62,591 nt of DNA from Lactiplantibacillus dongliensis (GTDB lineage Bacteria > Bacillota > Bacilli > Lactobacillales > Lactobacillaceae), in contig NZ_BJDK01000020.1 in NCBI RefSeq assembly GCF_005405105.1, forward strand, positions 1-62,591, written 5' to 3'. The translations under genes and the position numbers were made by a program. Shown piece by piece: positions 53 to 50,400 of the stretch. Position 1 is the first letter of the stretch. Every line of letters begins with the position of its first letter. The notes under the pieces were generated by a model. It was not told where the DNA came from. It was given only the letters and a program-made list of their open reading frames with translations, and made no database searches.

Positions 53-109
53 TACATTATTAACTTTCAACCTTTAGTTATATTATTTAATTGTTAACTA
101 ACGCAGGGC

Positions 110-239
110 GGGCTGGATGATGCTCAGTGGTGAAATTTGACTTAACCGAGTGGGTTACTCGGGTTAGTCAAAGCCCGGCTTTCGAGACCACTGTTTGGCT
201 CGAAAACGCGGCCACCACGTTCCAGCATCAATCCAGACC
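110..239 (+). repeat. structured repeat module R1
   Basis: First copy of a dispersed structured module. Outer stem CTGGATGATGC / GCATCAATCCAG, then GTGGTG / CACCAC, then hairpin TTTGACT / AGTCAAA with an inner CCGAGT / ACTCGG, then hairpin TTTCGAG / CTCGAAA. Bases 240-256 are the inverted flank (CCAACC..AAGTGGCAAG) seen at other copies. No coding frame runs through it. It sits between the 21-52 hairpin and asnA. Confidence 0.75.
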
Positions 240-264
240 AACCGAAGTGGCAAGGACTTACTAA

Positions 265-5495: not shown

Positions 5496-5592
5496 ACTGC
5501 ATATTTTTAAAGGTTGTGATGTGTTAGAAAAATTAATTTAGCTGAAAATTGCGTAGTTTTCAGTTGAAGACTGAATATCTTTTGATATTAAA

Positions 5593-6012
5593 TTGCCACT
5601 CTGGTTGGCCCATAATCGGCTGGAACGTGGTGGCCGCGTTTGTGAGCCGAAGAGCGGTCTCACAAGCCGGGCTTTGACTAACCCGGGAAGACCACCGGCT
5701 AAGTCAAACGATACCACTGAGCCAATTCTGGCCCGCCCGCCGTTAGTTAGGCGATATTTATAAAATGTTCAATCAACAAATTTAGCCGAGAGGTTGGTTC
5801 CTAAAATGCTCAGCTGTGTCATTGGCCTTAGTGCGAGTAGTCTACTCGGACTTAGGCCAAGGTCAGTTTTGAAGACTGGGCTTTGGCTTCAAAATGGCCC
5901 ATGGCGTTCCAGCGTTTTAGGAACCAACCGGCAGGCGGCAATTTCAACTAGTACCAAGCGTATCAACTAAAATATGGCAGTTAGCCAAATGCTGACCCAA
6001 CCAGAGTGGCAA
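5593..6012. repeat. composite repeat with 16-bp inverted ends (modules R2 and R3)
   Basis: Perfect terminal inverted repeats TTGCCACTCTGGTTGG (5593-5608) and CCAACCAGAGTGGCAA (5997-6012). Inside are two structured modules in opposite orientation. R2 (5603-5737) reads on the minus strand, with stems TGTGAG/CTCACA and TTTGACT/AGTCAAA. R3 (5792-5929) reads on the plus strand, with outer stem GGTTGGTTCCTAAAATGCT pairing to AGCGTTTTAGGAACCAACC. AACTAGTACCAAGCGTAT after R3 is the end sequence of the other composites. No protein is encoded. It fills most of the gap before recQ. Confidence 0.8.
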
Positions 6013-6097
6013 GTTAACCCAGAGGCGCGAGTTGTAACTGGCGTCATTTCTCGGTAGAATGGAAACACTGAAATTAACACGAAGGAGCAATTCGGCG

Positions 6098-7900
6098 ATG
6101 GACTTAGCGGCGGCGCAACAAGTATTAAAAACAACGTTTGGTTATGATGAATTTCGACCGGGGCAAAAGGCGGTCATTGAACAAGTATTAGCCGGGCAAA
6201 ATACGCTCGCAGTCATGCCCACCGGGGGCGGTAAGTCGTTATGTTACCAGATTCCGGCTTTACTGTTTGACGGCTTAACGGTCGTTGTTTCCCCATTGAT
6301 CTCGTTGATGAAAGATCAAGTCGATGCCTTGAATGATAACGGGATTGCGGCGACCTACATCAATAGTTCGATGTCGTATCAAGAGATTTATCAACGAATG
6401 CAAGAGTTGCGTGCGGGTGACTATACATTGTTGTATATTGCACCGGAACGTTTAGACTCGTCGCAATTTGTGCAAGATTTAGGTCAGTTGCCGATTAAAT
6501 TATTGGCGATTGATGAAGCCCATTGTATCTCACAGTGGGGCCATGATTTTCGACCGAGTTATTTGGCCTTAAGTACTGCGATTGAACAGTTACCAACGCA
6601 TCCGCAAGTCCTAGCGTTAACAGCCACGGCGACTGAACAAGTGGCCCAAGATATTTGCCAGCGATTGGCAATTGCACCGGATCATGAAGTTAATACGGGG
6701 TTTGCCCGCGATAATTTGAATTTAGCGGTGGTCAAGGATCAAGATACTGATCGTTATATTTTAGATTATTTAAAAGCTAACGCCGGGGAAGCCGGTATTA
6801 TTTATGCCAGCACGCGCAAAGAAGTTGCGCGAATTGCTAGTTTATTGAACCATCATCAAGTTAAAGCGGCGATGTATCATGCTGGTTTAGACGATGATGT
6901 GCGACGCAAGAATCAAGAAGATTTCCTTTACGACCGGGTGCAAGTGATGGTCGCAACTAATGCATTTGGGATGGGGATTGACAAGAGCAACGTGCGGTTT
7001 GTCATTCATGCCCAAGTCCCCGGAACACTAGAAGCTTATTATCAAGAAGCCGGCCGGGCTGGGCGTGATGGGCTGCCGAGCGAAGCCATCTTGATTTATC
7101 GGGCCTCGGATGCCCAGATTCAACATTTCTTTATCGATAACTCAGAAATGGATGAGGAACACAAACACCGTTCGTATCGGAAACTACAGGTCATGAGCCA
7201 ATATGCCAATACCCAGGGCTGTTTACAGCAATTTATTTTAAAATATTTCGGTGAAGCGTCTAAACCCTGTGGTCGTTGTAGTAATTGTACGGATGACCGG
7301 GAAGCCCAAGATATCACGACCAATGCCCAAAAAGTCTTATCTTGTGTGGTACGACTACATTCCCGCTTTGGTAAAGGGGTGGTCGCGCAAGTCTTGACCG
7401 GTGCCAATAATCAGCGGATTCGCGACTCGAATCTAAGTGAATTGTCGACTTACGGGATTATGGCCGGTCAGCGGCAAAAAAGTGTTGGCGAATTGATTGA
7501 ATTCTTAACGGCAGCGGGCTATTTGCAAAGTGTTGGCGGTCAATATCCAACCCTAGCCGTCACGCAAACCGGCGTCGAGGTGCTCAAAGGTAGCACCCAA
7601 GTTTATCGCAAAACGGCACGGACCGTTGAGCGGGCCGTGCCAGTGAATGGGGCGTTATTCGAACAATTACGGACGCTGCGTCGTAATTTGGCGGAAGAAC
7701 AGCATGTGCCACCGTTTGTCATTTTCTCAGATAAAACCTTGCACTCGATGTGTGATCTACTGCCAGAAAATGATGATGATTTTCTCGAAGTGCGGGGCGT
7801 GGGGGCCAATAAGCTCGAGAAATATGGTGAAACGTTTATGGAAACGATTCGGGCCTATGCCCATCAAGAACCGACGACTACAGAAGATTCTGAAGCTTGA
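6098..7900 (+). CDS. recQ: ATP-dependent DNA helicase RecQ
   Basis: 3'-5' superfamily 2 DNA helicase for replication fork repair and recombination. The start is the ATG at 6098 behind AAGGAG (an upstream ATG at 6059 has no ribosome site), giving 600 residues, normal for the family. The order is: Walker A GGGKSLCYQIP (about residue 42-52), DEAHCISQWGHDFRPSY (about 140-156), motif VI HAQVPGTLEAYYQEAGRAGRD split over residues 300-320, a zinc site with CGRCSNC near 370, a winged-helix RQC region, and a C-terminal HRDC domain (FVIFSDKTLHSM...). All key residues are intact. It is a single gene, convergent with the serine hydrolase. Confidence 0.95.
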   Translation: MDLAAAQQVLKTTFGYDEFRPGQKAVIEQVLAGQNTLAVMPTGGGKSLCYQIPALLFDGLTVVVSPLISLMKDQVDALNDNGIAATYINSSMSYQEIYQRMQELRAGDYTLLYIAPERLDSSQFVQDLGQLPIKLLAIDEAHCISQWGHDFRPSYLALSTAIEQLPTHPQVLALTATATEQVAQDICQRLAIAPDHEVNTGFARDNLNLAVVKDQDTDRYILDYLKANAGEAGIIYASTRKEVARIASLLNHHQVKAAMYHAGLDDDVRRKNQEDFLYDRVQVMVATNAFGMGIDKSNVRFVIHAQVPGTLEAYYQEAGRAGRDGLPSEAILIYRASDAQIQHFFIDNSEMDEEHKHRSYRKLQVMSQYANTQGCLQQFILKYFGEASKPCGRCSNCTDDREAQDITTNAQKVLSCVVRLHSRFGKGVVAQVLTGANNQRIRDSNLSELSTYGIMAGQRQKSVGELIEFLTAAGYLQSVGGQYPTLAVTQTGVEVLKGSTQVYRKTARTVERAVPVNGALFEQLRTLRRNLAEEQHVPPFVIFSDKTLHSMCDLLPENDDDFLEVRGVGANKLEKYGETFMETIRAYAHQEPTTTEDSEA

Positions 7901-7951
7901 ACAAACATTGTCAGTTAACTGACGATCCTGTTAAAAAGCGCCAAGCAACAA

Positions 7952-9097
7952 CTAATCAGCTTGGTTCAGTAAACTGTACAAGTGGCTGTTAACCAAGCCA
8001 AATGAACTAATGTTATTTTGAATATTCGACATTAAGACAATGTAGGTTTTACCAGTGTGGGTGAAGCTATTGGAAATATTCCAACCACTGACGATTCCGT
8101 GACTATTATAAGCCCCGGGATCGGCGTAAAAGCCCATACCATAACCAGAAGCGCTCCCGGCCGTCAGCATTTGTTTGCGGGCGGCTTTAGTGATGAGACG
8201 ATTGGTCATCAAGGCTTGATCGAAGCGATACATGTCAGTGACGGTCATCGCGATATTTCCAACGCCGTAAAGTTGTGATAGGTCTGGCAAACTTGGCGTG
8301 GTATACTGACCATTGGTTAAGCGATAGCCGGTCGAACGTTGTTTGGCTTTAGCAAAAGCTTGGTAGGTTAAGGTCGTGGTCATCTTGGCCGGCTTGAAGA
8401 TGTGTTGCTGTAAATAGTGATCCAAGGTTTCGCCACTGAGCTTTTCGACGAGGTAAGCCAGGACGGTATAATTACTGTCTAAGTAGTGCCAGCGGCCAGG
8501 TTGTGCTTGTACACCTTGTTTTTCAATATCGTGCAGCAGGGCAGCCGGGGTGATGGCCGCATTGACTTCCTGATGGCCGGTCAATCCCGAAGTATGAGTC
8601 AGCAGGTTTTTCAGCTTGATTGATTGACCGTTGGGAAATTTAGGAAAATAAGTTTTGATTGGGGCATTGATCTTTAATTTACCAGCTGTTTGTAATTGTA
8701 AAATCGCCGTCGCAATCAGTGCTTTTTCCGTTGACCCGATGTAGTAGGGCGTATTGAGCTGATTAGCGAGATGCTGGTTACGGTTACGCAGACCATAAGC
8801 TTTGCGCAATATCACTTGATGATTGCGTACGATTAAGGCTGTTCCGGAAAAATGCAGCTGGGTTAAATAATGATCTAGTTTTGGATTTTTAACGATTGTC
8901 GTGAGTGGTGCCGGCTTCGCTAATGGTTTGGGCTTGACGTGTGGCTTGGTGACTTTTGTCGTGGTCACCATTGGTTTGGCGACTTGATGGCGCTGGTTCC
9001 AGATGAACTTGCCCGTCAGTGTGACGGTCCCCACGCAAGCTAGGATGATTAAAAAGAGCCGCAATTGACGCGGCCAGCGTGATCGTGAATAATGCAT
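7952..9097 (-). CDS. extracytoplasmic beta-lactamase-family serine hydrolase
   Basis: Penicillin-binding-protein/class C beta-lactamase fold enzyme (381 residues from the ATG at 9097, behind TGGGGGAA). One N-terminal membrane helix (LFLIILACVGTVTLTG) is followed by a Lys/Pro/Thr-rich spacer (KPHVKPKPLAKPAPL), so the catalytic domain is outside the cell. The SxxK nucleophile is in GSTEKALIAT. The second catalytic element is near YLDSNYTVLAYLVEKLSG. HTGKT in NSFTHTGKTYIVLMSN takes the KTG position. Such proteins include D-amino acid or teichoic D-Ala esterases and carboxypeptidases; the substrate cannot be told here. The 14-base palindrome GTCAGTTAACTGAC lies just past its stop, between the convergent genes. 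Confidence 0.85.
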   Translation of the reverse strand: MHYSRSRWPRQLRLFLIILACVGTVTLTGKFIWNQRHQVAKPMVTTTKVTKPHVKPKPLAKPAPLTTIVKNPKLDHYLTQLHFSGTALIVRNHQVILRKAYGLRNRNQHLANQLNTPYYIGSTEKALIATAILQLQTAGKLKINAPIKTYFPKFPNGQSIKLKNLLTHTSGLTGHQEVNAAITPAALLHDIEKQGVQAQPGRWHYLDSNYTVLAYLVEKLSGETLDHYLQQHIFKPAKMTTTLTYQAFAKAKQRSTGYRLTNGQYTTPSLPDLSQLYGVGNIAMTVTDMYRFDQALMTNRLITKAARKQMLTAGSASGYGMGFYADPGAYNSHGIVSGWNISNSFTHTGKTYIVLMSNIQNNISSFGLVNSHLYSLLNQAD

Positions 9098-9143
9098 ATG
9101 AAATTCCCCCAAAGTTATCAATTATCAATACTATAGCATGTTT

Positions 9144-9153
9144 GTACAACGTT
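9144..9153. promoter_or_regulatory. palindrome between divergent genes
   Basis: ACAACGTTGT, a perfect 10-base palindrome (GTACAACGTTGTAT with flanks), lies between the starts of the serine hydrolase and the pseudouridine synthase. It is a possible operator; no regulator is assigned. Confidence 0.3.
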
Positions 9154-9192
9154 GTATGTTAAGTTTTAGTCTATTTTTAAGGAGAGAAATTA

Positions 9193-10077
9193 ATGCAGAT
9201 AAACTGGCAACATCAAGGCGCTCCGGTGTCGATGAAACACTTTTTGACGACTCACGGGATTAGCATGCGGCTGATTAAAGCCATTAAGCATGGCAGTGGG
9301 ATGTTCATTGTGAACGACGAAGCTGAAGTTGGTGCAATTACGATTGAAGATGGCGATATTGCTGGTATCGAACTACCTGCGGAAGCGGCCGACCCAGAAG
9401 TGGCTGTCAGTGATGCACCGCTAGCGGTCGTCTACGAAGATGCGAATTGGCTGGTTGTGAATAAGCCCGCCGGTGTCAGTAGCGTGCCAGGACCAACTAA
9501 TCGGACAGATACGTTAGTCAATCGGATTAAAGGTCATTTAGTGGCGACGAAAGCCGAAAACTTAAAGCCGCATTTAATTACCCGGCTGGACCGTGATACG
9601 AGTGGCCTCGTCTTAGTGGCGAAGCATCGAGTCGCCCAAGGGATGATGGCTTGGCAACCAGTTGCGAAGACGTTCCAAAAAACGTATCGCGCCTGGGTCA
9701 GTGGCGGGGCCTTGAGCCCAGTTAATGGGACCATCGAAGCGCCCATTGGCCGGGTCGATGAGTCGCCGCGCCGGCAAGTGACCGATGATGGTCAGATGGC
9801 GATTACCCGTTACCGCGTACAAGCGACTTATGGTGAGGTCACCGAAGTGCAATTGACCTTAGTGACAGGGCGGACCCATCAGATTCGCGTCCACTTTACC
9901 CATTGGGGCCATCCGCTCTTAGGGGATGCGTTGTATGGTGGTGATCAAACGTTGATTCAGCGACAAGCGTTGCATGCCGCGACCATGACGTTCCATGATC
10001 CATTTAATGATCAGCAATTAACTTTTGAAGCGCCCTTACCAACTGATTTAGTTACCTTAATTAACAAACTCCAGTAA
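9193..10077 (+). CDS. RluA-family RNA pseudouridine synthase
   Basis: Converts specific uridines in rRNA or tRNA to pseudouridine. At 294 residues it has an N-terminal S4-like part (KHFLTTHGISMRLIKAIKHG) and the catalytic domain with HLITRLDRDTSGLVLVAK, whose Asp in RLDRDTSG is the family nucleophile, plus VTGRTHQIRVHF near the C-terminus. It begins behind AAGGAGAGAAATTA. The exact member (RluD-like or one of the YhcT/YlyB/YjbO set) cannot be fixed by eye. It is a single gene ending at a strong terminator. Confidence 0.92.
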   Translation: MQINWQHQGAPVSMKHFLTTHGISMRLIKAIKHGSGMFIVNDEAEVGAITIEDGDIAGIELPAEAADPEVAVSDAPLAVVYEDANWLVVNKPAGVSSVPGPTNRTDTLVNRIKGHLVATKAENLKPHLITRLDRDTSGLVLVAKHRVAQGMMAWQPVAKTFQKTYRAWVSGGALSPVNGTIEAPIGRVDESPRRQVTDDGQMAITRYRVQATYGEVTEVQLTLVTGRTHQIRVHFTHWGHPLLGDALYGGDQTLIQRQALHAATMTFHDPFNDQQLTFEAPLPTDLVTLINKLQ

Positions 10078-10119
10078 AAAAACAGTGTTCACCGGCGATG
10101 GCCGATGAGCACTGTTTTT
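10076..10119. terminator. bidirectional terminator between convergent genes
   Basis: AAAACAGTGtTCAcCGG / CCGaTGAgCACTGTTTT with A- and T-runs on both sides. It serves the pseudouridine synthase and the ArsR gene. Confidence 0.9.
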
Positions 10120-10131
10120 GGTTATATTGCC

Positions 10132-10464
10132 TTAATCTGATTGCTTCGTGACCGGCTGATAATCAGCAGCCAAAGCATCAAAAGTCATTTGTAATTGTTT
10201 TAAGGGTGCCGTTAAGGTGAGATAATAAATATGTTCAACCCCGTTACTGCGCATTTCGATGACACCAGCCTCTCGCATTAAGCGTAAATGGTGTGAGACA
10301 GCTGGTCGGGAGATGTTAACAAGCGCGGTAATATCGGTCACATTCAAGCCATCACCGCTGTTCCCGAGAGCGATAATGATTTGGCGGCGGATTTTTTCAG
10401 CGAAGATCCCAATCAGTTGGGCGCTCGCTGCTAATGCTGCTTCAGATTTTTGATAGTTAGCCAT
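10132..10464 (-). CDS. ArsR-family transcriptional regulator
   Basis: A 110-residue winged-helix protein. The recognition region is DITALVNISRPAVSHHLRLMREAGVIEMRSNG, split here as helix 3 plus wing, and YYLTLT follows as the wing strand. The metal-binding Cys motif (ELCVCDL) of classical ArsR/SmtB is absent, so the signal is probably not arsenic or cadmium sensed that way. GAAAGGACTAGGTCAGTT precedes the ATG. A strong promoter lies 270 bases upstream, giving an unusually long GC-rich leader. The divergent flavoprotein at 10879 is a plausible target by position only. Confidence 0.88.
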   Translation of the reverse strand: MANYQKSEAALAASAQLIGIFAEKIRRQIIIALGNSGDGLNVTDITALVNISRPAVSHHLRLMREAGVIEMRSNGVEHIYYLTLTAPLKQLQMTFDALAADYQPVTKQSD

Positions 10465-10731
10465 AACTGACCTAGTCCTTTCAGATTCTATTTAATCGAC
10501 GTCGAGTCGTTCCCCCCATGCGTGGTCGCGCAGTGTTAAGCCCGCGGGTACGCTGAAACGGCGCTAAGCAGATTAAGCGGACAACTACGCCATCCTTGAC
10601 GTTTGTGCCTAATAAGCTAGGTCACAATTTATCCCCGTGATGCTTGGCGTGCCGTTGGTAATCATCACGAGAGATCATGATGTCCGCAAGTTGTCGAACG
10701 GACAGCTTAGGTTAAGGAACACCTATGCTTA
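10465..10731 (-). other. long GC-rich structured leader upstream of the ArsR gene
   Basis: Between the minus-strand promoter and the ArsR start lie about 267 transcribed bases, clearly richer in G+C than the flanks. They carry hairpins TGTCCG/CGGACA (10681-10703), CATCACGA/TCATGATG (10661-10680) and the palindrome TCGACGTCGA (about 10497-10506). An 18-codon frame (MISRDDYQRHAKHHGDKL) lies inside but has no ribosome site. It could be a cis-acting leader or a separate small RNA. No known riboswitch core was recognised. Confidence 0.45.
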
Positions 10732-10737
10732 CTATTA

Positions 10738-10766
10738 ATTAAAACAACACTTTAATCAATTGTCAA
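10738..10766 (-). promoter_or_regulatory. promoter of the ArsR leader
   Basis: Minus-strand TTGACA (10761-10766) and TTTAAT (10738-10743) with a 17-base spacer, the consensus arrangement. Confidence 0.75.
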
Positions 10767-10878
10767 TCGTTTTTATTTGGATTGTTCATAATTAGCGGGT
10801 TGAATGATTAATGTTTGTTTGGTATCCATTTATTGGTTCATTTGCGTTAAAATAGAGGATAGTGAAGGAGTGAAGATA

Positions 10879-11643
10879 ATGCGGGTGTTAGGTATTTTAG
10901 GATCCCAACAACCAAACGGGATTACGGGTCAATCTTTGCAGGCAGTCTTAAAAGGCGCGGCTGAAACGGCGACAACTGACTGGATCAACTTAGCTGACTA
11001 TCAGATTACAGCAGATCATGATAACCAGCCTAATCCAGTATTGGATAGCCTGGAAGCTAAATTATTAGCTGCCGATGTATGGATTTTAGCGGCCCCAACT
11101 TATATAGGTGGTTTATCAGGAATTATGAAAAATTTTTTAGATTGTATGCGCAACCGGATTGCCCGCTACAATGCGGTGGGGGAAGCGGTCCCGGATCGGT
11201 TTAAAAATAAACACTATGTGACGATTACGAATTGTTATGCTGGCGGGGTTGAGAACTTTGTGACCGGTGTGACCGATGCGGCATTTAAGACCATGGATAA
11301 GTTCTTAACCATGGGCGGCTTAATTAAAGTCCGTGAAATTGTGGTCACGAAGACGTTTGGAATGACAACACTATCAACTAAGAAGCAAGCCGAATGTGAA
11401 CGGGCTGGCCAAAGGGCTGCGACTAAGAAGGAGCGAGATGATAATACGATGAAACGATATCTAGAGTTATTTGGGATGATTGCCGTGATGGCACTAGTGA
11501 CGATGGGAATTGAAGCTGGGATTGGTCGTCTGCTCCCATTAGACAACTTTTGGGCGTATTACGGGGTCTTTGTAGTCGTTTTTTACGTTTTATTAGCGTC
11601 AATCTTGCACTTTTTCACCGTTGTCAAGCATCGGCGGCGCTAA
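10879..11643 (+). CDS. NAD(P)H-dependent FMN reductase domain with C-terminal membrane tail
   Basis: A 254-residue protein from the ATG at 10879 (behind GAAGGAGTGAAGATA; the 25 codons of open frame before it lack a ribosome site). Residues 1-170 are a flavodoxin-like NADPH-FMN reductase: GILGSQQPNGITGQSLQ binds the FMN phosphate, ILAAPTYIGGLSGIMKNFLD is the second flavin loop, and YAGGVENF the third. Residues 190-254 form two membrane helices (YLELFGMIAVMALVTMGIE and YYGVFVVVFYVLLASILHFF) ending in a basic KHRRR. Most relatives are soluble, so the membrane tail is notable and would place flavin reduction at the membrane. The partner is unknown. Confidence 0.85.
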   Translation: MRVLGILGSQQPNGITGQSLQAVLKGAAETATTDWINLADYQITADHDNQPNPVLDSLEAKLLAADVWILAAPTYIGGLSGIMKNFLDCMRNRIARYNAVGEAVPDRFKNKHYVTITNCYAGGVENFVTGVTDAAFKTMDKFLTMGGLIKVREIVVTKTFGMTTLSTKKQAECERAGQRAATKKERDDNTMKRYLELFGMIAVMALVTMGIEAGIGRLLPLDNFWAYYGVFVVVFYVLLASILHFFTVVKHRRR

Positions 11644-11666
11644 AAAGTGGTACGATACTGATGTAG

Positions 11667-11738
11667 GCGCTGTTAGTGTAATGGATAGCACGCGAGATTT
11701 CGGTCCTTGCGATCAGAGTTCGACTCTCTGGCGGCGCA
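11667..11738 (+). tRNA. tRNA-Arg(TCG)
   Basis: A 72-base cloverleaf. Acceptor GCGCTGT/GCGGCGC (two G-T pairs), D-arm with AATGGATA loop, anticodon loop TTTCGGT giving TCG (reads CGA), T-arm CAGAG-TTCGACT-CTCTG, discriminator A. No CCA encoded. The top of the anticodon stem is an A31-C39 mismatch. It is a lone gene 23 bases after the flavoprotein stop. Confidence 0.85.
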
Positions 11739-11754
11739 ATAGTAAGCAGGAATA

Positions 11755-11802
11755 GCCGGTATTGATAGGGATAACCCTTGATATACCGGCTTTTCTTGTT
11801 TT
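11755..11802 (+). terminator. terminator after tRNA-Arg
   Basis: GCCGGTAT / ATACCGGC with an inner GGG/CCC pair, then TTTTCTTGTTTTT. The next 380 bases to 12184 are AT-rich with no repeat or gene that I can support. Confidence 0.8.
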
Positions 11803-12184
11803 TGCTAGTGGCATGGCTATGGGCAATATCTAAAGTCGTGATTTCATTAATACTGAGTAGCAAACTTTAATTTGAGTGACCCGAAATTTAGCGATATGTA
11901 AAGCAATTGTATTTATTGGGTGCGCTAATACTGATTATTGCACTAATTGGCTGAAGGCTAATGGTAAAATTTAAAGTGAATTGATTGAATAACTGATTTT
12001 TGTTAAAATCTGGTATTGATAGTGTAGAATTTTCTTAATCTGAGAATTGTTGTCTGAAATCAGAATGGAAAATTAGCGATTAATATAGCCGCTCAATCAG
12101 CTTTCATGTCAGTAAATATTTCAAGAAAAAATAAAGGTTAGCTAGATAGCGGCGATACGATGACCATTATAGAAAGGAAATTCC

Positions 12185-12490
12185 ATGGATATTAATATAT
12201 TCGATCGAGATGAATTAATAATAAATGTGCTTAATCAGTTAGCCGAAAAAGCTAATTTAGAGTCGGTTGATTTAGTGCTCTTGAATTCTAAGCTGTCAGC
12301 TAAAGAAAGCCATGACTTGATGGTTTTTGTAGCTGAAAAGCAAGTCAAAAAACAAGCATTATCTAAAGAGGAATGTATTGCTCAGGTGTTAAAGATTAAA
12401 CCGGATATTGAGAGTGCCGATGGATTTGTTAATCAATTAAAAAGGGCATTTGTTGCGGAAGGCCGTTTTCCAGATGTTTTAAATCAGTAG
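12185..12490 (+). CDS. small cytosolic protein of unknown function
   Basis: A 101-residue, charged, mostly helical-looking protein (MDINIFDRDELIINVLNQLAEKANL...). It has no signal peptide, membrane segment or recognised motif. AGAAAGGAAATTCC precedes the ATG. It is a single gene after a 450-base AT-rich gap and ends before the terminator at 12571. The AT-rich codon use (AAT, ATA, TTA) differs from the neighbouring recQ/rluA genes and may point to acquisition. I cannot assign a role. Confidence 0.7.
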   Translation: MDINIFDRDELIINVLNQLAEKANLESVDLVLLNSKLSAKESHDLMVFVAEKQVKKQALSKEECIAQVLKIKPDIESADGFVNQLKRAFVAEGRFPDVLNQ

Positions 12491-12570
12491 TTACATTAAT
12501 TTTAAGTGGGGTAACCTGTACTTTTAATAGGAAGTCGTTCTTTATTAGTATTGAATCTTGTAGCATATGT

Positions 12571-12628
12571 AGCCCAAAAAAGACTTAGCCAATGGCAACC
12601 ACGCCATTGGTTAAGTCTTTTTTGGGTT
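12571..12628. terminator. strong bidirectional terminator
   Basis: AGCCCAAAAAAGACTTA and TAAGTCTTTTTTGGGTT flank the inner stem CCAATGGC/GCCATTGG. It ends both the 12185-12490 gene and the small membrane-protein operon on the other strand. Confidence 0.92.
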
Positions 12629-12771
12629 TAATTATTGTCGTTAGTGTCATCATCAGGATGATGATCGGTATCCTGGTGAGTGACATTTGGGGACGTTTGA
12701 AAGTGATTATTAGAGAAGATCCAAGCAAATACACTACCAAGTAATAAGAATTTCAGCAAATAAAGTAACAT
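12628..12771 (-). CDS. tiny membrane protein with His/Asp-rich tail (third of three)
   Basis: A 47-residue protein: one membrane helix (LLYLLKFLLLGSVFAWIF) then a polar tail with HQDTDHHPDDDTND. GAGG lies 9 bases before the ATG. It starts 26 bases after the preceding small gene and so is probably co-transcribed. The stop codon overlaps the terminator stem. The N-terminus shares the pattern short hydrophobic helix, W-I-F, acidic/His tail with the two upstream genes. Function unknown; the tail could bind metal ions. Confidence 0.65.
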   Translation of the reverse strand: MLLYLLKFLLLGSVFAWIFSNNHFQTSPNVTHQDTDHHPDDDTNDNN

Positions 12772-12797
12772 CGGTGAATGCCTCGTTTCTTAAATGG

Positions 12798-12971
12798 TTA
12801 CTCGTCGTCACTATCGTCAACGTAGTCACGACCGTAATCTCCGTCACTGCCATCGATATCAGTAAAATGATGATCAGGGTGATTTGAAGTCACTTCGCTC
12901 GGCGGGTTACCAAAGAAAATCCATGCAACTATGCCGGTAAAAATTAAGGACCCTAATAAGACAATTAACAT
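12798..12971 (-). CDS. tiny membrane protein with His/Asp-rich tail (second of three)
   Basis: A 57-residue protein: membrane helix LIVLLGSLIFTGIVAWIFF, then GNPPSEVTSNHPDHHFTDID and a very acidic end DYVDDSDDE. GAGG is 12 bases before the ATG. It is clearly related in layout to its two neighbours and is the longest of the set. A TTGATAGTT motif occurs about 70 bases before its start (13041-13049 on the plus strand as AACTATCAA), as it does before the first gene. Confidence 0.65.
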   Translation of the reverse strand: MLIVLLGSLIFTGIVAWIFFGNPPSEVTSNHPDHHFTDIDGSDGDYGRDYVDDSDDE

Positions 12972-13082
12972 CGCTGTCTAACCTCATTTCTAAGAATAAG
13001 TGTAAGTTACCCCTTAAAGTTAGCACGCGGTTGAATCGTCAACTATCAAATTATTGTAAAGGCTTGGTTAGGAAACCGTAAA

Positions 13083-13187
13083 TTATTTAGGATCGTGAGA
13101 ATCATGTCGCGTCGGCACTTTGCCACCAATCCAGATGCTAGCGGCCATGATAACTAGTAGCGCAATACTAATGACTAAAATTGCCAT
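13083..13187 (-). CDS. tiny membrane protein (first of three)
   Basis: Only 34 residues: MAILVISIALLVIMAASIWIGG then KVPTRHDSHDPK. One membrane helix with a short His/Asp-containing tail. GAGGTGAACACA precedes the ATG, a convincing ribosome site. It is the upstream member of a minus-strand trio that ends at the terminator 12571-12628. Such genes are below usual annotation cut-offs. Confidence 0.6.
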   Translation of the reverse strand: MAILVISIALLVIMAASIWIGGKVPTRHDSHDPK

Positions 13188-13303
13188 TGTGTTCACCTCG
13201 GTTTATCAGCTTTAATAACTCATACCATAACGTTCTAATCACGGACTAACTATCAAGAAGCCGTAAAGTTAAGGTGACAGTTGTGTAAAGGTGTGTTGAG
13301 GTG

Positions 13304-13718
13304 TATCCATATACGCTTGGTGCTGGTTGGCTTACATTGTCACTCTGGTTGGGCCAGAATCGGCTGGAACGTGGTGGCCATGTTTGGAAGCCAAGGGCGG
13401 TCTTCCACAAGCCGGGGGTTATCTAAGTCGGAAAATCACCGACCAAGATAAACGACACCACTGAGCCAACTCAGGCCCGCCCGGTGTTAATAAACGGGAA
13501 TTAATGACTATTTATTGTCAGCCCCAGATATAGCCGAGAGGTTGGTTCCTAAAATGCTCAGCCGTGTCGTTGGCCTTAGTGTGAGTGGTCTGCTCGGACT
13601 TAGGCCAAGGCCAATTTTGAAGACCGCACTTTGGCTTCAAAATGGCCCATGGCGTTCCAGCGTTTTAGGAACCAACCGGCAGGCGGCGAGTTCAACTAGT
13701 ACCAAGCGTATCCATATA
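13304..13718. repeat. full composite repeat with terminal inverted repeats (modules R4 and R5)
   Basis: The ends are inverted repeats ATACGCTTGGTGCTGGTTG (13311-13329) and CAACTAGTACCAAGCGTAT (about 13693-13711), 17 of 19 matching. A 10-base direct repeat TATCCATATA lies at 13304-13313 and 13709-13718, like a target-site duplication overlapping the tips. Inside, module R4 (13347-13477, minus orientation: stems GGAAG/CTTCC, TTATCT/AGATAA, GTCGG/CCGAC) faces away from R5 (13540-13677, plus orientation), which is nearly identical to R3. No protein coded. Confidence 0.8.
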
Positions 13719-26189: not shown

Positions 26190-26255
26190 TACGCTTGGTG
26201 CTAGCTGGCTTAAATTGCCACGCTGGTTGGCTCAGAATCGGTTGGAACGTGGTCG
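26190..26255 (-). repeat. truncated structured repeat (R7)
   Basis: Contains the composite end ACGCTTGGTGCTAGCTGGCTT and the first part of a module (CGCTGGTTGGCTCAGAATCG, GGTTGGAACGTGG), then loses similarity. It is a 5' remnant. Bases 26256-26379 hold nothing recognised. Confidence 0.65.
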
Positions 26256-34013: not shown

Positions 34014-34418
34014 GATGCGGTTCCTCCTTAGTATTGACGCAAGCTACCGGTAAAATTCAAGAAATTTAAAACGGTTGCAACCAAAAGCAATTGGTTTGCG
34101 CTACAATTTAATTATGGCACGATGATTACTAAGCTGCAAGCGTGTTAGCTGAATTAGTCAGGCGGTTTAATAATTAAATTAGTTGGTTCAGTTATGAAGG
34201 GGACTAGGCCATTTGGCGGTAGGTGTTTGATGCTAGTCAATTTTGTTGTCAATCTGCTGGTTAAAGTAAATGGTCGTTAGTTTTTTAATGGCGAGCGGAC
34301 CAGAGTAACAAGTTTAATCTTAACCAGTATCAGTAGCAAAAAAAGTGTAAATGTAGTACGATAATTGCACTATCATTTAAAATGGCGATTTATTAATTAG
34401 TTGAGGTGACGGATATTC

Positions 34419-36907: not shown

Positions 36908-37190
36908 CGACGCTTGGTACTAGTTGGCTTAAATTTTCACTCTGGTTGGTCCAGAATCGGCTGGAACGTGGTGGCCACGTTTTCGAGCCATAGTGCGGTC
37001 TCGAAAGCCGGTCTTTCACTAAGTCGGAAAATCATCGACTAAGTGAAACGACACCACTGAGCCAATTCTGGCCCGCCCGACGTTAACTAACGGATATAAA
37101 AAAATAACGATTGATTATTTTCAGTTCAGTCATTTAGCAACCAACCGGTAGGCGGTGATTTTGACTAATGTTAAGTGTATTTATAAGCGT
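36908..37190. repeat. composite repeat with deleted second module (R6, R8)
   Basis: It starts with the composite end GACGCTTGGTACTAGTTGGC and a full module in minus orientation (R6, 36944-37077: TTTCGAG/CTCGAAA, TTTCAC/GTGAAA, AGTCG/CGACT). Only the last part of the inverted partner remains (R8, CAACCAACCGGTAGGCGG at about 37139-37157) with a decayed end. It shows internal deletion of one module. Confidence 0.75.
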
Positions 37191-43871: not shown

Positions 43872-44062
43872 TATATCGAAAGAAGAGGACGCGATTAACA
43901 ATAGTAGTTCAAGGGAGCTGGAGTGACCGGCGATGAACTTGAATGAACGGGGCAATCGCCGAAATCTTAAACCGGGTCACCCGGTTTAGGGTTGGGCCTT
44001 GGTTGAATAAATCAAGGACTGTCGCAGCGGGAGTTTCGCTGCGGGGCGCTATCGACGATGAA
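43872..44062 (+). promoter_or_regulatory. lysine riboswitch (L-box)
   Basis: The leader has the L-box landmarks in order: AGAAGAGGACGCGA, AATAGTAG, GGGCAATCGCCGAAA, GGTTGGGCC, GGACTGTCGCAGCGG and the closing GGGGCGCTATCG. Paired hairpins CGGCGAT/ATCGCCG, CCGGGT/ACCCGG and GCAGCGGG..CGCTGC fill the arms. Lysine binding would favour the terminator at 44088 and so shut off the permease. Confidence 0.88.
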
Positions 44063-49753: not shown

Positions 49754-49835
49754 GCGGGTGTGGCGGAACTGGCAGACGCGCTAGATTTAGGTTCTAGTGT
49801 CTTACGACGTGGGGGTTCGAGTCCCTTCACCCGCA
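49754..49835 (+). tRNA. tRNA-Leu(TAG)
   Basis: 82-base class II tRNA, acceptor GCGGGTG/CACCCGC, anticodon loop TTTAGGT, long variable arm TGTCTTACGACG, T-loop TTCGAGT. CCA not encoded. Confidence 0.95.
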
Positions 49836-49842
49836 CTATCAT

Positions 49843-49915
49843 GCCGACTTAGCTCAGTTGGCAGAGCATCTCACTAGTAATGAGGAGGTCGGAGGTTCGA
49901 ATCCTCTAGTCGGCA
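49843..49915 (+). tRNA. tRNA-Thr(AGT)
   Basis: Acceptor GCCGACT/AGTCGGC, anticodon loop CTAGTAA with anticodon AGT (A34, likely read as inosine or unmodified A), T-loop TTCGAAT. 73 bases. Confidence 0.93.
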
Positions 49916-49941
49916 TTTACAACTTAATAGCTTTTTAATTT

Positions 49942-50013
49942 GCGGAAGTAGTTCAGTGGTAGAACATCACCTTGCCATGGTGGGGGTCGCGGGTTCGAAT
50001 CCCGTCTTCCGCT
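49942..50013 (+). tRNA. tRNA-Gly(GCC)
   Basis: Acceptor GCGGAAG/CTTCCGC, anticodon loop TTGCCAT, discriminator T as usual for bacterial tRNA-Gly. Confidence 0.95.
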
Positions 50014-50021
50014 TTTAATTT

Positions 50022-50107
50022 GCCGGGGTGGCGGAATTGGCAGACGCACAGGACTTAAAATCCTGCGGTTAGTGATAACCGTACCGGTTCGATCCCGGTC
50101 CTCGGCA
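50022..50107 (+). tRNA. tRNA-Leu(TAA)
   Basis: 86-base class II tRNA, anticodon loop CTTAAAA, variable arm CGGTTAGTGATAACCG. Confidence 0.95.
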
Positions 50108-50116
50108 TTTTAATTT

Positions 50117-50190
50117 GCACCCATAGCGCAATTGGATAGAGTGTCTGACTACGAATCAGAAGGTTGTAGGTTCGACTCCTACTGGGTGCA
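50117..50190 (+). tRNA. tRNA-Arg(ACG)
   Basis: Acceptor GCACCCA/TGGGTGC, anticodon loop CTACGAA (ACG, normally inosine-modified by TadA). Confidence 0.95.
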
Positions 50191-50197
50191 TTGGTAT

Positions 50198-50271
50198 CGG
50201 GAAGTAGCTCAGCTTGGTAGAGCACCTGGTTTGGGACCAGGGGGTCGCAGGTTCGAATCCTGTCTTCCCGA
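50198..50271 (+). tRNA. tRNA-Pro(TGG)
   Basis: Acceptor CGGGAAG/CTTCCCG, anticodon loop TTTGGGA. Differs from the next tRNA mainly in the anticodon arm. Confidence 0.95.
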
Positions 50272-50282
50272 TCGATTATAAC

Positions 50283-50315
50283 AGTCTTAGTTTTCTGAAC
50301 TAGGGCTTTTTATTT
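50283..50315 (+). terminator. terminator between the two tRNA-Pro genes
   Basis: AGTCTTAGTT / AACTAGGGCT (two G-T pairs) then TTTTTATTT. Confidence 0.75.
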
Positions 50316-50326
50316 AATCTTTTTAA

Positions 50327-50400
50327 CGGGAAGTAGCTCAGCTTGGTAGAGCACTACGTTCGGGACGTAGGGGTCGCAGGTTCAAATCCTGTTTTCCCGA
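50327..50400 (+). tRNA. tRNA-Pro(CGG)
   Basis: Same body as tRNA-Pro(TGG), with anticodon arm CTACG-TTCGGGA-CGTAG and small T-arm changes (TTCAAAT). It lies beyond a terminator and has no promoter of its own that I can see, so expression probably depends on read-through. Confidence 0.93.

Follow-up and report, generated by a model that had tools for sequence, protein, structure and literature searches.

Apparently conserved branched folds at the unlike ends of a putative MITE-like element of Lactobacillaceae

When the letters of a short bacterial repeat change but its shape, to all appearances, does not, what is it that reads the shape? The question is raised by contig C20 (NZ_BJDK01000020.1) of the 3.107-Mb genome of Lactiplantibacillus dongliensis, all 62,591 nucleotides of which—'the window' in what follows—were analyzed here. 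A first-pass annotation of the window had noticed six dispersed modules of about 130 nt. It held that these fold as three-way junctions with compensatory changes in every helix, and that the fold itself is selected, either as RNA or as extruded DNA.

The six modules are where the annotation put them. A covariance model, R1, built from 19 modules, matches all six with scores of 112 to 149 bits; three additional, weak matches (18–22 bits) lie opposite three of them, on the other strand. Since the window modules are among those from which R1 was built, independent support comes from their folds. RNA fold z-scores against shuffles range from -3.4 to -10.3, and the three-way junction is the minimum-energy fold of five of the six, the sixth, at 36944, folding differently when taken in isolation. 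The stem sequences listed in the annotation are present in the DNA as described. From the outside inward, a module comprises stem P1, an unpaired CA opposite GTTCC, stem P2 (GTGGTG/CACCAC in modules of types A and C), three linking bases, and two hairpins: P3, with CTTAG on either side, and P4, which has the form GACCG..CT...GGC. The letters proposed to be shared and unpaired are so for CA and GTTCC, but not throughout: the T of TCAG and the A of GTTCCA form the pair that closes P1, and the two bases that follow GACCG, in the P4 loop, vary freely. GTTCC is 92–99% conserved per base among 127 modules, and CA is kept in 124 of 127 and 114 of 121 (94–98%). Rfam contains no match to the modules at gathering level anywhere in the window, and none for 5560–6040 even at E values of up to 5.

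Covariation across genera bears out the claim of compensatory change. Alignment A3 contains 132 modules (127 distinct) from 84 loci; 143 of its 305 columns were retained, namely those with gaps in fewer than half of the sequences, and the null was our own tree-aware version, not R-scape, in which substitutions are reshuffled along a FastTree tree. Twenty-two of the 42 pairs covary at E values of up to 0.05, spread over all four helices, and their scores are reached by no null pair in 50 simulated alignments. Only two significant pairs lie off the structure, both of them adjacent to helix pairs and placed so as to extend the helices. Because A3 was fitted to the model, the test was redone on a structure-blind MAFFT alignment; this gives 21 significant pairs, of which all but one fall within P1 to P4 or distal P3. 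Standard pairs occupy 97.0% of 5090 cells, versus 68.1% when shuffled and 33–43% when the partners are slid, and the pairs of the outer stem pass through all four Watson–Crick types. The two outcomes that the annotation had named as fatal to selection for the fold, namely no covariation, or stems freely broken, were both looked for, and neither occurred.

Imperfect pairs reveal which strand folds. Tree events were counted at 39 pairs (the three apical pairs of P4 were removed) for changes on a single side of the helix. Across genera, standard pairs changed to G-U 47 times and to A-C 23 times, and in the L. dongliensis genome alone, 56 and 34 times. Single changes restored a standard pair 17 times from G-U and twice from A-C across genera, and 15 times and never, respectively, within L. 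dongliensis. Binomial p values for these comparisons are 0.006, 0.026, 0.0007 and 6e-5, but are only indicative since the sequences are related. G-U is thus tolerated above A-C, from which it follows that the folding strand is the one that the annotation named. Selection, then, appears to keep the fold of the module, and to do so on one strand; and that the shape is kept while the letters change suggests that something in the cell reads it.

What the annotation missed is that the modules belong to a larger unit, a mobile element with modules of unlike type at its two ends. We examined 382.6 kb of L. dongliensis, made up of the window and 16 stretches with module matches. The set comprises 72 of 78 matches, together with the six in the window; of the six matches excluded, three shadow B modules on the opposite strand and three are weak or partial. 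They fall into 46 clusters—26 arranged '-+', three '--+', 17 single, and none '+-' or '++'—such that all 29 multi-module clusters are divergent. By a crude caller of open reading frames (ORFs), 42 of the 46 lie outside predicted ORFs, and their gene context displays no clear preference (19 tandem, 12 convergent, 11 divergent, four unknown). Divergent pairs recur in genomes G243 and G134, in several other lineages, and on a plasmid of Levilactobacillus brevis; most elements are around 400 bp, with lengths of around 730–790 bp in two other lineages looked at; those of G134 measure around 730 bp.

In L. dongliensis and in its sister Lactiplantibacillus songbeiensis 398-2 (G193, the closest genome used, two loci of which are 100% identical to contig C23 of that strain, over 8000 and 5999 bases; it is 83–97% identical to the window in aligned pieces outside the repeats), one A and one B module lie within inverted ends, ACGCTTGG...CCAAGCGT, in a non-coding unit usually of about 400 bp. 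The terminal repeat ACGCTTGGTGCTAGTTGG, allowing up to three mismatches, occurs 205 times in the L. dongliensis genome versus twice for a control. Among 45 distinct bounded elements of 159–408 bp, from loci fetched because they contain modules or repeats, the A+B type accounts for 44; the remaining one is unknown+B, and none is A+A or B+B. Five element centers from three other genomes have no conserved ORF, the longest open stretch being 112 codons in one and at most 61 in the other four.

Such elements seem to have moved by insertion. Perfect target duplications flank 16 of the 45 (four of 7 bp, seven of 8 bp, four of 9 bp and one of 10 bp), and mispaired flanks, the control, give a perfect duplication once in 1980. 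In the window, a complete A+B element of 397 bp, element 2 (13313..13709; ends ACGCTTGG...CCAAGCGT), is bordered on either side by the 8-bp duplication ATCCATAT, at 13305..13312 and 13710..13717. An empty site is found, too. At 34298..34312 the window reads gaccagagtaacaag, with one gaccagagt and no element; the sister has an A+B element there, between AACCAGAGT and AACTAGAGT, flanked by a 9-bp duplication with one mismatch between the copies. Other sites that are unlike in the two genomes have diverged too much to be read. Terminal inverted repeats, a target-site duplication, and short length without a transposase gene are among the marks of miniature inverted-repeat transposable elements (MITEs), and these elements have all three. 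They lack the AT-richness that is typical of MITEs though not defining: the 72 L. dongliensis modules are 41–61% GC, and sister stretches around 45%.

The family is numerous. The L. dongliensis genome has at least 150 R1 matches, all with E values below 1e-24; of 1753 candidates 150 were scored, and every one of these matched. A sample of 457,575 bases, consisting of the window and 20 stretches from three large contigs already known to contain matches, and hence non-random, has 72 matches at E values of up to 1e-5, including a few partial ones. Extrapolated, this amounts to some 490 modules per genome (the window alone, with six in 62.6 kb, would give some 300), and the modules by themselves account for about 2% of the 458 kb sampled. 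The search of Lactobacillaceae genomes that the annotation had proposed finds modules in 77 of 301 genomes, representing 13 of 40 genera, and none in G071 and G211, which are of the same genus as L. dongliensis. An order-wide scan with a broader model, R2, matches 12 of 295 genomes, all within Lactobacillaceae; stricter filters were applied in both scans. By model matches, carriers include Lactiplantibacillus daoliensis and nangangensis, Lacticaseibacillus suilingensis and suibinensis, and plasmids of L. plantarum, L. paracasei and L. brevis. The element of G243 matches 25 plasmids, 18 from Lactiplantibacillus and seven from Ligilactobacillus, and no phage, and a module of G248 has plasmid matches in L. 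paracasei and L. brevis. No plasmid is matched by queries from G128 and G134, and R2 finds no module in any of the four pattern matches on viral contigs. A phage or plasmid origin for the element in the window was rejected: it has no match in plasmids or phages.

How are these observations best explained? We lean, if only just, toward a family of non-autonomous, MITE-like transposable elements whose two unlike ends are recognized as folded strands. From the orientation of the modules, it follows that the folding strand exits the element with its 3' end outward, and in cut-and-paste transposition the strand with its 3' end outward is the one that is transferred. A transposase supplied in trans might recognize both ends as folded single strands, their hairpins being extruded, perhaps, during replication or transfer. 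Ends read in this way would be free to drift in the letters of their stems while holding to their shape and loop letters, and recombination among the many copies could swap stem variants between elements. The stricter proposal, that each terminus is read as a folded, branched single strand—three-way, and in some cases four-way—and that two unlike ends are required, target duplications notwithstanding, is a tentative one.

Several observations weigh against the transposable-element reading. Twenty-nine of the 45 elements have no perfect duplication, and the length of the duplication varies, from 7 to 10 bp. The whole element also folds well arm to arm, though as the A and B ends have diverged, an arm-to-arm hairpin is probably not what is kept. 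Divergence is not a universal rule, for same-strand tandems occur in G134 (L272, L276) and at G080:C4:201753-202471. Then there are the modules that stand alone, 14 of 40 A modules and none of 21 B, by a typing with simple patterns that left three of 71 modules untyped. Solo A modules have 0.86 broken pairs each (n = 14) versus 0.69 in mated A modules (n = 26; p 0.46), and a role purely as a transposition end predicts this intactness only if the solo modules are young; intact solo A, without solo B, could mean that A serves some use of its own.

Nor did a mobilizer come to light in the families searched, PF00872, PF01797 and PF01609; others were not searched. Of 103 terminal repeats (some at overlapping loci), 95 run into module ends, and no element with a transposase was found in the fetched sequence. 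PF00872 (IS256) was rejected, occurring in one of six genomes, the module-free G071. So was PF01797 (Y1, HUH), absent from six of nine carriers—G000, G125, G243, G128, G248 and G279, the L. dongliensis genome among them—and present in carriers G193, G149 and G134 as well as in module-free G071 and G211. PF01609 (DDE_Tnp_1) is found in six of seven carriers and is absent from carrier G128; of the module-free genomes, G071 has it and G211 does not. One module match, at L361, turned up at 28 transposase loci. The eight terminal repeats without a recognized module end, candidates for an autonomous partner, look by eye to be mostly truncated or rearranged.

The alternative that survives best, though we consider it unlikely, is that the modules act as RNA: a structured molecule that a transposable element carries and disperses, produced by outward transcription or by read-through, with a protein or ligand as its partner. 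An RNA would suit the covariation seen in many genera, with its well-conserved junction letters, and likewise the tolerance of G-U above A-C on one strand, and the solo modules that remain intact. The same can be said of the partner modules of L. dongliensis that bear an extra hairpin of the same kind. Three of these, L310:13158-13332, L308:1670-1838 and L307:16308-16482, have a second, P4-like hairpin with the motif GAC...TTCGGC or GACC...TTTGGC, and two of the three have a four-way junction as their minimum-energy fold. The frequency of G-U cuts both ways. It makes up 2.0% of pairs across genera (97/4763) and 4.0% in L. dongliensis (155/3889), versus 9.9% (34/344) in 16 tRNAs, these being 31 calls minus duplicate, overlong and doubtful ones. 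B modules, however, average 2.86 G-U among some 39 pairs, and so approach the tRNA level, whereas A modules average 1.15. The overall scarcity of G-U points, weakly, toward DNA. The surroundings of element 2 contain no promoter-like or terminator-like site, the gene context of the clusters is mixed, and an RNA has no need of an A+B rule at element ends. An ordinary known RNA or cis-regulator was rejected on the first two of these grounds and on the blank result from Rfam. Of the annotation's claim, selection for the fold is supported, and the choice between RNA and extruded DNA is left as it was.

It is improbable that the fold is not selected at all, and that template switching and gene conversion among imperfect palindromes simply match the stems to each other. 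Template switching is described as able to create and maintain hairpin stems (PMC8794818), and something of the kind can be seen when the four insertions common to L. dongliensis and its sister are aligned. In two of them P4, or P3 together with P4, has been replaced as a block: in L090/L239 both arms of P4 in the A module are changed and those of P3 are not, and in L077/L304 the change takes in P3 as well as P4, the A side being otherwise mostly identical (the L. dongliensis copy has its B deleted). In the other two, L058/L303 and L112/L147, both arms of P3 and P4 of the A module are unchanged. Of the 62 A- and C-type modules of L. dongliensis, 59 yielded to parsing; the arms match perfectly in 55 of these for P3, and in 55 for P4, and a few stem variants recur. 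P3 and P4 variants are linked (chi-square p 3e-6, for 50 of the 59 copies), which rules them out as freely exchanged cassettes and implies lineages plus some exchange. In G134 (L263–L282), the right-hand modules are, by eye, near-identical between copies and the adjoining centers visibly different, as if the modules alone were homogenized. Recombination, then, seems to shuffle stem variants, and to account for part of the apparent double changes; it leaves the kept loops, the strand bias and the spread across genera unexplained. Without selection we should expect neither a strand bias nor kept loops, but G-U and A-C are tolerated unequally, and GTTCC and CA are conserved while two bases in the P4 loop vary; and the folds persist across 13 genera.

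Integron attC sites are also conserved in shape above sequence, with one active strand and fixed core boxes. That the modules are a recombination site of this kind, the folded strand recognized by a tyrosine recombinase, would account for the conserved shape, the variable stem letters and the unpaired bases, but it is very improbable given the paired inverted ends and the 7–10 bp target duplications, which attC sites are not known to have, and given that the outer stem takes all four Watson–Crick types and so has no fixed outer box.

Viewed as transposable elements with two unlike ends, the copies in the window are in various states of repair. The range that the annotation gave, 5593–13718, covers modules but merges two separate elements, of which the second, with its duplications, is 13305–13717. 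This is element 2, with its A module at 13347..13483 on the minus strand (R1 112.2 bits; z -5.0) and its B module at 13539..13677 on the plus strand (140.7 bits; z -10.3). Element 1 has an A module at 5603..5739 (minus; 148.5 bits; z -3.4), a B module at 5791..5929 (plus; 130.8 bits; z -9.2) and, by sequence, a right terminal repeat, caactagtaccaagcgt, at 5945..5961 (minus); its left repeat was not seen. Beside it, at 5984..6012 (plus), lies gccaaatgctgacccaaccagagtggcaa, which sequence and comparison with the sister locus identify as the tail of an older solo module. A RecQ-like helicase gene lies downstream; where the window has this remnant next to an A+B element, the sister has a whole module (L219:5871-6029). 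Element 3 has a left terminal repeat at 36910..36927 (plus), an A module at 36944..37079 (minus; 144.1 bits) and a degenerate right repeat, gactaatgttaagtgt, at 37163..37178 (minus); its B mate is gone, from approximately 37079–37163. A C-type module with the tail ccaaccgaagtggcaa occupies 105..243 (plus; 139.1 bits; z -5.9) and is without a mate in the window, the contig beginning at 1. Of a truncated element at 26191..26252 (end approximate), there remain the left terminal repeat and the A module's outer portion. Elsewhere, the window contains a lysine riboswitch at 43875-44059 and seven clustered tRNA genes at 49754-50400.

How does the family compare with known systems? IS200/IS605 elements and REP/RAYT systems have ends that are recognized as folded single strands. 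Neither is known to have terminal inverted repeats or target duplications, and they differ, too, in their Y1 enzyme, which six of the nine carriers tested lack, L. dongliensis included. Our searches of the open-access literature did not find the module family; most subscription papers were outside their scope. Among the closest known systems is QMITE2 of Coxiella burnetii, described as a short, non-coding, mostly intergenic and folded MITE with terminal inverted repeats and duplications of 7–9 bp (PMC10969869). The module elements share these features, but unlike QMITE2 and MITEs as described, they have two branched folds at unlike ends, and covariation over many genera; besides, no parent insertion sequence was found in the fetched sequence or through the three transposase families searched, and the modules on the whole are not AT-rich. 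Pneumococcal BOX elements, built of boxA, boxB and boxC modules, are also folded, with 125 BOX made from 422 modules in one genome; BOX and RUP have terminal repeats and target duplications, and BOX is reported as nearly confined to Streptococcus pneumoniae and S. mitis (PMC3049150). Judged by such descriptions rather than by sequence, divergent pairs across a bacterial family set the module elements apart from BOX, RUP and SPRITE. In the Bacillus cereus group, bcr1–bcr18 are described as mobile repeats of 100–400 bp; bcr1 has up to 130 copies and a predicted fold, and bcr mobility is tied to TTTAT repeats (PMC2267715, PMC6542083). Unlike the bcr repeats so described, the module elements have paired, unlike ends, and a different group of hosts.

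Folded repeats are widely known in bacteria; strong evidence that the fold is kept is less usual. Here, the evidence for the fold, from many copies across 13 genera, comes together with duplicated target sites, a site found empty in one of two sisters, and the regular pairing of one end with an unlike other. Whether the shape of a branched single strand can be read by a transposase thereby becomes a testable question, in genera that are used in food and as probiotics.

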